A stretch of 42,752 nt of DNA from Candidatus Aveggerthella stercoripullorum (GTDB taxonomy: Bacteria > Actinomycetota > Coriobacteriia > Coriobacteriales > Eggerthellaceae): positions 1 to 42,752 of the forward strand of contig DVGB01000034.1 in NCBI GenBank assembly GCA_018712955.1. Reading direction: 5' to 3'. The notes under the pieces were generated by a model. It did not search any database. It was given only the letters and a program-made list of their open reading frames with translations, and was not told where the DNA came from. Both the position numbers and the translations under genes were made by a program. This document shows positions 3,570 through 28,728 of the stretch, one piece after another (within the stretch, counting starts at the first letter, position 1; each line of letters opens with the position of its first letter).

Positions 3570-6928
<3,359 letters not shown>

Positions 6929-26975: not shown

Positions 26976-27821
26976 ATGGCCATCACTTCGGGTGACATTC
27001 ACAATCAAAGCTTCTCTATCGACCGCAAGGGCTACAACGTCGACGAAGTCGACGTGTTCCTGGAGCATGTCGCGAATGAAATTGACCTGCTGAACGAGCA
27101 GATTGACCAGCTGAGCAGCCAGGTGAACGACCTGGGTGCTGCGCTTCAGCAGCGCGAAGAAGAGCTTGCTGCCGCGCAGTCTGCTCCGGCGGCCCCGGCA
27201 GAAGAGTCCACGCCGCTTCCGGCGAACGCGACTCCGGACGAGAAGGACGAGCGCATTGCGGAGCTCGAGCGCAAGCTTGAGGAGCGCAAGCTCGACGACA
27301 ACGCCATCGCCAAGGCGCTCATTACCGCGCAGCGCTCCGGCGAAGAGGTCATCGCCAAGGCGAAGTCCGACGCCGAGGGCATGCGTCGCGACGCCGAAGA
27401 GGAAGCCCGTCGCATCCTTGCGAAGGCCAACGGCGAGAAGCAGCGCATTCTGGAGTCCATCGACTCGCTCCAGAAGGACCGCGAGGACGTGCGCGCTGAA
27501 TACCAGACGCTGTTGCGCGGCTTCATCAACTCTGCCACGAAGACGCTTTCCGAAATCGGCGGCGAGTCCATTGCCGTCTCCTCGTACGCGGGCGACTCTT
27601 CTCTCGGCTTCTCCGAAGCCGAAGAGTCGACGGGCCGTGTTGCTGCGCGCGCCCAGGCTCCTGTTCGCCGTGAAGTGAGCTCTGCAGTTGCCACCTACAC
27701 CACCCCGCAGGTCAACAGCACGGTCGTCTCTCCGGCGACTCCGCGTCCTTCGAAGATCGAGAAGGACCTGAGCGGTTACGGCGACGCTGACGACAACTTC
27801 GAATTCGAAGACGTCGAGTAG
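26976..27821 (+). CDS. divIVA: DivIVA-family polar and septal organiser
   Basis: Coiled-coil protein that senses membrane curvature at poles and septa. It is 281 residues. The N-terminal lipid-binding domain reads ITSGDIHNQSFSIDRKGYNVDEVD, followed by a short coiled coil (about 20-65), an Ala/Pro/Glu spacer, a long second coiled coil (about 85-185) and a low-complexity C-terminus. The start follows GGAGGATC. In Actinomycetota such proteins (Wag31) direct wall growth; whether this one does is inference. Transcription runs into the structured repeat elements facing rnpB. Confidence 0.94.
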   Translation: MAITSGDIHNQSFSIDRKGYNVDEVDVFLEHVANEIDLLNEQIDQLSSQVNDLGAALQQREEELAAAQSAPAAPAEESTPLPANATPDEKDERIAELERKLEERKLDDNAIAKALITAQRSGEEVIAKAKSDAEGMRRDAEEEARRILAKANGEKQRILESIDSLQKDREDVRAEYQTLLRGFINSATKTLSEIGGESIAVSSYAGDSSLGFSEAEESTGRVAARAQAPVRREVSSAVATYTTPQVNSTVVSPATPRPSKIEKDLSGYGDADDNFEFEDVE

Positions 27822-27824
27822 AGA

Positions 27825-27985
27825 GTTGCGCGTGCCTACGGCACGCGCAACTGCTCGACGCTGCGAAGCGCCCTGGCACCGAATTCTGCCATTCAAAAAG
27901 CCCTGTGCGGACCAAAGTCCAGCACAGGGCTTCTTTCATGTCAGCCTTCGGCACCAGGGCGCTTCTCGCTGACTTTACGAACGAC
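27825..27985 (+). repeat. structured repeat element, copy 1
   Basis: A 161-base element starting 3 bases after the divIVA stop. In order: hairpin A (12-bp stem, GTTGCGCGTGCC at 27825-27836 with its complement at 27840-27851); a conserved box AACTGCTCGACGC (27849-27861); about 36 bases; hairpin B (27898-27932, with tip GGAC-CAAA-GTCC and bulged A27921); then a tail with CTTTCATGTCA and a conserved end CTCGCTGACTTTACGAACG. Copies 2 and 3 share this layout. I do not recognise it as a known RNA family or insertion sequence. Confidence 0.75.
27898..27936 (+). terminator. intrinsic terminator formed by hairpin B of copy 1
   Basis: AAGCCCTGTGC (27898-27908) pairs with GCACAGGGCTT (27922-27932), followed by CTTT on the + strand. 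On the minus strand the same stem is followed by TTTTTG, so it should stop transcripts from both directions. It is the likely end of the divIVA transcript and a barrier for minus-strand transcription from rnpB. Confidence 0.7.
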
Positions 27986-27995
27986 CTATGGGATG

Positions 27996-28139
27996 ACTGC
28001 GCAACTGCTCGACGCCCAAGAACCGCCTGGCATGGAATCTAGCCATTCAGAGGGGGTCCGGTGGACCATAGTCCAACCGGGCCCCCTCTTCATGTCTATT
28101 GTCTACGCCAGGGCGCTTCTCGCTGACTTCGCGAACGAC
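27996..28139 (+). repeat. structured repeat element, copy 2
   Basis: Direct repeat of copy 1. The conserved box AACTGCTCGACGC is at 28003-28015, but the left arm of hairpin A is missing. The segment before hairpin B keeps about 19 of 24 bases of copy 1. Hairpin B (28050-28088) has a 13-bp lower stem unrelated in sequence to copy 1, the tip GGAC-CATA-GTCC (28063-28074) and bulged A28075. The last 32 bases (28108-28139) match copy 1 at 30 positions. Confidence 0.75.
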
Positions 28140-28221
28140 AAAGGTGAGGTGCTCCAGCCTGCAGCAATGCACACCCGTTCGCGAGAGATGTTCCTGACGT
28201 GTTGAGTGCGCATTTTCCATT

Positions 28222-28381
28222 CCGTTCGCAACGTCAGCGAGCGTGCTTCTAGCGAGTCAGATTGACACGAAATGAGGCCATGGCTGGACTATGGTCCGCC
28301 ATGGCCTCATTGAGCGACAAGATGACCGCTGGAAACGTGCACAGCGTCGAGCAGTTACGCCGGCCTGTCGGCCGGCGTAAC
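28222..28381 (-). repeat. structured repeat element, copy 3 (inverted, after rnpB)
   Basis: Same element on the minus strand, 160 bases, beginning a few bases after the 3' end of rnpB. Hairpin A has a 12-bp stem (28381-28370 with 28365-28354) whose differences from copy 1 keep pairing. The box AACTGCTCGACGC is at 28356-28344. Hairpin B (28311-28271) has a 14-bp stem of new sequence, the tip GGAC-CATA-GTCC and the bulged A at 28285. The tail ends with CGCTGACGTTGCGAACG. Confidence 0.75.
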
Positions 28382-28385
28382 AAAA

Positions 28386-28728
28386 GAGCAAGTGGGCTTG
28401 TAAGCCGGGTTCTGTCGCGGACGATCATTTATCTTGGACGCACGTCACCGTGCGCCTCGAGCACGCAACCCGAATGCACGGAAGGGCGGCCGTATCGCAC
28501 TCCTATTTGCGCTTGCTCCAGATGGGGTTTTCCAAGCCGCGCCGTTGCCGGCGCGCTGGTGCGCTCTTACCGCACCGTTTCAGCTTTTCTCCTGCCGCGA
28601 AGCAGGGGAGTTTTCTTTTCTGTGGCACTTTCCGTCGGGTCGCCCCGCCCAGCTGTTAGCTGGCATCTTGCCCTTGGGAGCCCGGACTTTCCTCACGCCG
28701 AAGCGCGCGATCGCCTGGCCCGCTTGCG
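28386..28728 (-). ncRNA. rnpB: RNase P RNA, bacterial class A
   Basis: Catalytic RNA of RNase P, which removes tRNA 5' leaders. On the minus strand the universal 5' core GAGGAAAGTCCGGGCTCC lies at about 28694-28677 and the 3' core GAACCCGGCTTACAAGCCC at about 28412-28394. The ends GCAAGCGGGC and GCCCACTTGC pair to form helix P1, which sets the approximate ends. Length of about 343 nt fits class A. A good promoter precedes it and a structured repeat element follows. Ends are estimated to within a few bases. Confidence 0.93.

Follow-up and report, generated by a model that had tools for sequence, protein, structure and literature searches.

What kind of element is repeated three times between divIVA and rnpB of Candidatus Aveggerthella stercoripullorum, and how did it come to lie there? 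The window analysed here, a stretch of 42,752 nucleotides, is contig 13 of a draft assembly of 115 contigs and 2.18 Mb (this genome is referred to as G000 in the comparisons below). On re-reading the sequence, we located the three copies at the places given in the original prediction, copies 1 and 2 on the plus strand and copy 3 on the minus strand (Table 1), with the claimed order of hairpin A, box, hairpin and tail, with matching tails in copies 1 and 2, and with AACTGCTCGACGC identical in all three. Apart from these copies, AACTGCTCGACGC has a single additional exact match in the genome, and the part of the box conserved throughout the family is only CGACGCTGCG. The second hairpin, described originally as a separate "hairpin B", is indeed present but forms the inner part of one long rod that is closed by an outer helix of 18-19 bp; the division into hairpin B, a TTTCRTGTC stretch and part of the tail had thus cut a single rod into pieces. 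Copy 1 starts 3 nt past the stop codon TAG of divIVA, and copy 2 has lost hairpin A and shows partial decay of the outer helix.

Table 1. Features of the divIVA-rnpB interval (positions are those of the window).
Feature	Position	Strand	Basis or remark
divIVA stop codon TAG	27819..27821	+	sequence; gene name as given in the original prediction
Copy 1, refined unit	27825-27991	+	
Copy 1, hairpin A (12 bp, loop TAC)	27825..27851	+	inverted repeat I8
Copy 1, left box CGACGCTGCG	27856..27865	+	
Copy 1, whole rod	27865..27965	+	alignment, covariance model, covariation
Copy 1, rod outer helix	27865-27883/27947-27965	+	
Copy 1, rod middle helix	27886-27892/27938-27944	+	symmetric TC/TC and Y.Y mismatches
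Copy 1, rod inner stem	27895-27912/27917-27935	+	apical loop 27913-27916
Copy 1, tail CTCGCTGACTTTACGAACGACCTATGG	27965..27991	+	
Copy 2	about 27999..28145	+	relic GCGCAACTGCT, then core 28010-28145; model R1, 121 bits
Copy 3, refined unit	28215-28381	-	
Copy 3, core (box, rod, tail)	28215..28349	-	model R1, 126 bits
Copy 3, hairpin A	28354..28381	-	inverted repeat I10; adjoins rnpB directly
rnpB (class A RNase P RNA), the gene upstream of copy 3	28385..28726	-	RF00010, 289.7 bits

As proposed in the original prediction, further copies were looked for, and they were found: blastn with the copies gave about 20 further places in this genome at E<1e-3, while a covariance model built from 12 full copies of this genome (model R1) detected about 50 separate places after removal of opposite-strand echoes. 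The three copies are therefore far beyond chance and belong to a dispersed family. For two other genomes of this genus, R1 gave 23 and 38 matches with echoes included (38 in the sister species G002). A second covariance model (R2), built on the minus strand from 62 diverse copies, detected matches in 106 of 138 Eggerthellaceae genomes, representing 36 of 48 genera, with at least 24 matches in many genomes. Within a sample of 296 genomes of the phylum, the matches were confined to Eggerthellaceae and a second family of its order, and many of those in the second family consist of the rod alone; one genome of the latter has rod-only copies, lacking box and tail, arranged as tandems with a spacing of about 129 nt (G246:C55:74719-74948 and G246:C7:22410-22638). 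Named records with the conserved tail belong to Adlercreutzia, Eggerthella, Paraeggerthella, Gordonibacter, Rubneribacter, Enterorhabdus and uncultured Eggerthellaceae, and the handful of tail matches in unrelated taxa is at the chance level by our own estimate of the expectation. No copy was detected in the viral, plasmid and phage collections searched. The comparison with Rfam (release 15), also suggested earlier, returned RNase P as the only match in the window, and a permissive scan of 27800-28400 came nowhere near a cut-off. No repeat family of this sort in Coriobacteria was found in the open-access literature.

Four parts make up the unit, which measures about 166-172 bp (approximately 170 bp): hairpin A (27 nt), the box CGACGCTGCG, the rod (about 100 nt) and the tail CTCGCTGACNTTNCGAACGACC. 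The 12 full copies of this genome align nearly without gaps over about 168 columns despite completely different stem sequences, and the core of box, rod and tail measures 135-136 nt in all 12. In the core alignment, 92.6% of the cells of the 43 rod pairs are standard pairs, against 33-44% in slid controls; 36 of the 43 pairs show double-sided changes, and these measures were reached by none of 500 shuffles. The unpaired features are constant as well: two TC/TC double mismatches placed symmetrically about a Y.Y mismatch, a bulged A next to the apex, and an apical loop of 4 nt. The covariation is overwhelming, in that pairing, lengths and mismatch motifs are kept while the stems are rewritten freely. 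Judged by eye, the element contains no conserved open reading frame.

The limits of the copied unit are indicated by paralogue pairs, which lie at different genes of one genome and share 96% (L167/L179), 93% (L148/L146) or 92% (two on L219) identity. The identity runs from GTTCCG of hairpin A through the end of the tail and the flanks are unrelated; because identity begins and stops there, hairpin A, CGACGCTGCG, rod and tail together form the unit that is copied. Tandem left parts, composed of hairpin A, CGACGCTGCG and a few to 40 nt, were also noticed upstream of a full copy on L148 and L058, resembling right-truncated or nested insertions, and position 6117 of the minus strand of L230 carries a solo terminator, GAAAAGTTCCGCCGTTC..GAGCGGCGGAACTTTTT, which is the hairpin A sequence without rod or tail. 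Presence varies between sister species. At L160, behind one gene, the unit of G000 stands between TAGGAGG and the gene that follows, and G002 is without the hairpin and the rod; the L061 site is empty in G002; and at L161 of G002 the rod is deleted while hairpin A and tail remain, so that some copies have been lost through rod deletion. In contrast to the nearly identical element of G000 and G002 at L069, both genomes are occupied by elements with unrelated stems at L059, L152 and L074, although gene identity there is about 78-89%. Where a site was already filled, ectopic gene conversion could look like copying. Since flush-ended paralogues have unrelated flanks and sister species differ in presence and absence, the element appears, by sequence comparison, to be mobile. 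Relic tails downstream of copies, considered as fossils of insertion, gave too weak a signal (12 of 131 copies against 9 on the opposite strand).

Within the window, the same comparison gives an order of events. G002 carries only one element behind divIVA, and it matches copy 2 best, with 111/136 against 104 for copy 1, and most clearly in the inner part; copy 1 is for this reason probably the newcomer, inserted between the divIVA stop codon and the older copy 2. The divIVA element of G002 (L254) is followed, downstream of 1848, by three decayed tail motifs, possible relics of earlier insertions. At rnpB, copy 3 is absent from both sister species, G001 and G002, which carry an ordinary terminator instead, and visual inspection of G000 shows no further terminator in the interval from rnpB to copy 3. 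As many other relatives have terminators there, the direction of this same-genus contrast would be a gain in G000.

The element is oriented as its upstream gene, with hairpin A a few nt past the stop codon. A co-oriented upstream ORF was found for 95 of the 116 copies with enough flank (approximate figures, from a simple ORF caller), and 90 of 137 copies have an in-frame stop within the scanned interval. The distance from stop to core shows a sharp peak at 33-35 nt, with most values at 30-39 nt, which places hairpin A 0-9 nt past the stop for more than half of the copies; only 3.1% of oriented intergenic positions, as determined for 665 kb of G002, lie 0-10 nt past a stop. Some copies are located behind tRNA genes or rnpB, indicating that a translation stop is not an absolute requirement. 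Behind tRNA genes, a true U-tract terminator (for example AAGCCCGGCCTAACGGCCGGGCTTTTT) replaces hairpin A, as seen at L264:17118-17253 and on L064 (G000:C64:17331-17466). A preference for TAR over TGA stops, highly significant at first (p 3e-8), shrank to 9% versus 21% TGA (p 0.01) against spaced genes, and this weak preference for TAA/TAG includes some doubtful TGA calls. The original prediction had offered two origins, a mobile non-coding element targeting gene 3' ends or a structured RNA family of this lineage, and each draws support: mobility from the paralogues and the variable presence, targeting from orientation and fixed distance to the stop codon, and the RNA family from covariation and the restriction to one order.

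Of the two strands, the minus strand, which runs opposite to the upstream message, has the better-preserved fold. When the rods of 137 copies were folded as RNA, the minus strand gave -70.2 and the plus strand -61.1 kcal/mol, and the minus-strand fold was the more stable in 115 of the 137 (Wilcoxon 7e-18, a nominal p as related copies are not fully independent). This comparison is conservative because the copies had been chosen with a plus-strand model. The RNAalifold consensus of 62 divergent copies agrees (minus -62.4, plus -50.6). Read on the minus strand, the conserved mismatches turn into tandem GA/GA and UG/GU motifs, the conserved CA/CA of the plus strand corresponding to UG/GU in 153 cells; of 98 apical tetraloops, 37 are cUUCGg and 17 cUUUGg, and the rod carries two-fold symmetric GGUGCC/AGAU motifs. 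An excess of A.C over G.T, tried as additional evidence for the minus strand, was dropped in favor of the folding comparison, since it came mostly from the conserved CA/CA positions; elsewhere among the well-paired positions, G.T and A.C occur in similar numbers (177 versus 191). Judging from these folding models, selection appears to favor the minus-strand fold, a surprising result not noticed in the original prediction. The cUUCGg loop is a hallmark of stable RNA, and from such loops and the tandem UG/GU wobbles we infer that the minus strand may exist as a folded single-stranded intermediate, RNA being likelier than ssDNA; DNA energy parameters also favor the minus strand, and RNA is therefore not proven.

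Taken with the position behind stop codons, these properties incline us, if only by a little, to a non-autonomous mobile element, present in tens of copies per genome, that passes through a folded minus-strand intermediate and is inserted behind stop codons by a trans-acting enzyme. The minus strand would form the single-stranded intermediate, more likely RNA than ssDNA, and the putative enzyme would recognize the two-fold symmetric rod and insert the unit after a stop codon. From then on, the inner hairpin of the plus strand could act as the 3' end or terminator of the gene, a side benefit that is seemingly needed at rnpB in G000 and by which, under this proposal, insertions behind genes are tolerated and kept. 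In its boldest form, in which a minus-strand RNA with a two-fold symmetric rod is copied into DNA behind translation stops by neither RAYT nor a recognizable reverse transcriptase, rewriting gene 3' ends across a whole bacterial family, the idea seems to us improbable.

Among the alternatives, we give a real though clearly smaller chance to a host-functional 3'-end element, that is, a terminator (possibly bidirectional) and message-end protector acting on the plus-strand message, which would owe its spread to gene conversion and its retention to selection, would not be selfish, and would have its place behind the stop as its function. The fixed register to the stop codon fits such a role, as does the element at rnpB of G000 in the very place of the sister species' terminator, and the edges of the inner hairpin are rich in A on the 5' side and in T on the 3' side; on the plus strand 19 of 62 copies have four or more T there, on the minus strand 1. 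These T-tracts are, however, short (only those 19 of the 62 copies have at least 4 T after the hairpin, and terminator features in copy 1 amount to a weak match at 27915-27932), the preserved fold is that of the other strand, rods are deleted freely, and close genera differ in copy number, from 0 to dozens. An unlikely alternative is a set of independent genes for small RNAs, transcribed off the minus strand antisense-adjacent to gene ends and acting in trans (for instance through a dimeric protein on the symmetric rod): the minus-strand fold, the cUUCGg loops and the symmetric motifs agree with it, but a sigma-70-like promoter for the minus-strand RNA was not found, tens of divergent copies stand at unrelated genes, and the stop-codon register is left without reason.

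A search with Pfam models in 41 relatives identified no mobilizing enzyme for the favored mobile element, as neither Y1 transposase nor reverse transcriptase tracks copy number: Y1_Tnp is absent from G001, G002, G019 and G023 despite 20-38 matches, and RVT_1 from G000, G001, G002, G008, G019 and G024. G002, a 98% complete genome, contains neither domain. For this reason, mobilization of a REP/BIME-type element by a RAYT (Y1) transposase is very improbable, as is a SINE-like element spread by reverse transcription, even though REPs (GTAG and CGTC super-families, palindromic and high in copy) also lie mostly downstream of coding regions (PMC3733652, in which Coriobacteria and Eggerthella are not mentioned) and stem-loop repeats of similar size are known elsewhere (PMC2267715). 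The anatomy differs too, for the unit of about 170 bp has neither the 20-40 bp palindrome nor the unpaired GTAG/CGTC tag of REP, and no link to RAYT. An autonomous relative, with left and right ends enclosing an ORF, was not found in 665 kb of G002, where most orphan-end matches were coding chance; the unit ends, GTTCCG... and ...CGAACGACC, are not the terminal inverted repeats of a MITE, and no target-site duplication was seen by eye in three paralogue pairs. A perfect inverted repeat of 19-20 bp, AAATAATCCTATGACAATC, AT-rich within the GC-rich genome, at 6159 of the plus strand of L278 (seen from the other strand too) resembles a different mobile element.

Integron attC sites lie directly behind a stop codon in fixed orientation and conserve the fold of one strand rather than its sequence. 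The Eggerthellaceae element shares all three properties; in contrast to attC, however, it stands as single copies behind core genes and not in cassette arrays, and its consensus ends differ from the RYYYAAC/GTTRRRY boxes and do not pair at the base of the fold. The bcr1-bcr18 repeats of the Bacillus cereus group are dispersed, intergenic and non-coding, bcr1-bcr3 being MITE-like and some families having conserved RNA structure (PMC3446304). The present element is likewise dispersed, intergenic and non-coding, but the lineage of bcr is unrelated. We know of no stop-codon register or strand-biased rod in bcr1-bcr18. ERIC is intergenic and folds as one long stem-loop, and in Yersinia it influences neighboring messages (PMC2267715). 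The Eggerthellaceae element resembles ERIC and YPAL of enterobacteria in intergenic location and size, but it has a hairpin A of its own, a box and tail that are fixed, symmetric mismatches inside the rod and an orientation tied to that of the upstream gene, and its stems turn over far more strongly. By analogy we file it as a structured interspersed repeat, which may work like the stem-loop repeats ERIC, bcr1 and REP and lacks the testable hallmarks of REP, MITE and attC.

The copies constitute a previously unlisted family of apparently mobile non-coding elements, about 170 bases long, behind the stop codons of ordinary genes of gut Eggerthellaceae. Several bacterial groups are known to have structured interspersed repeats; unusual here are the strict stop-codon register, a fold conserved on the strand that opposes the message, and the near-complete turnover of stem sequence under fixed geometry. 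The covariance model provides annotators with a tool for finding the element. As several genera common in the human gut carry tens of copies, gene 3' ends of well-studied strains would be affected, and this can be tested in existing transcriptomes.
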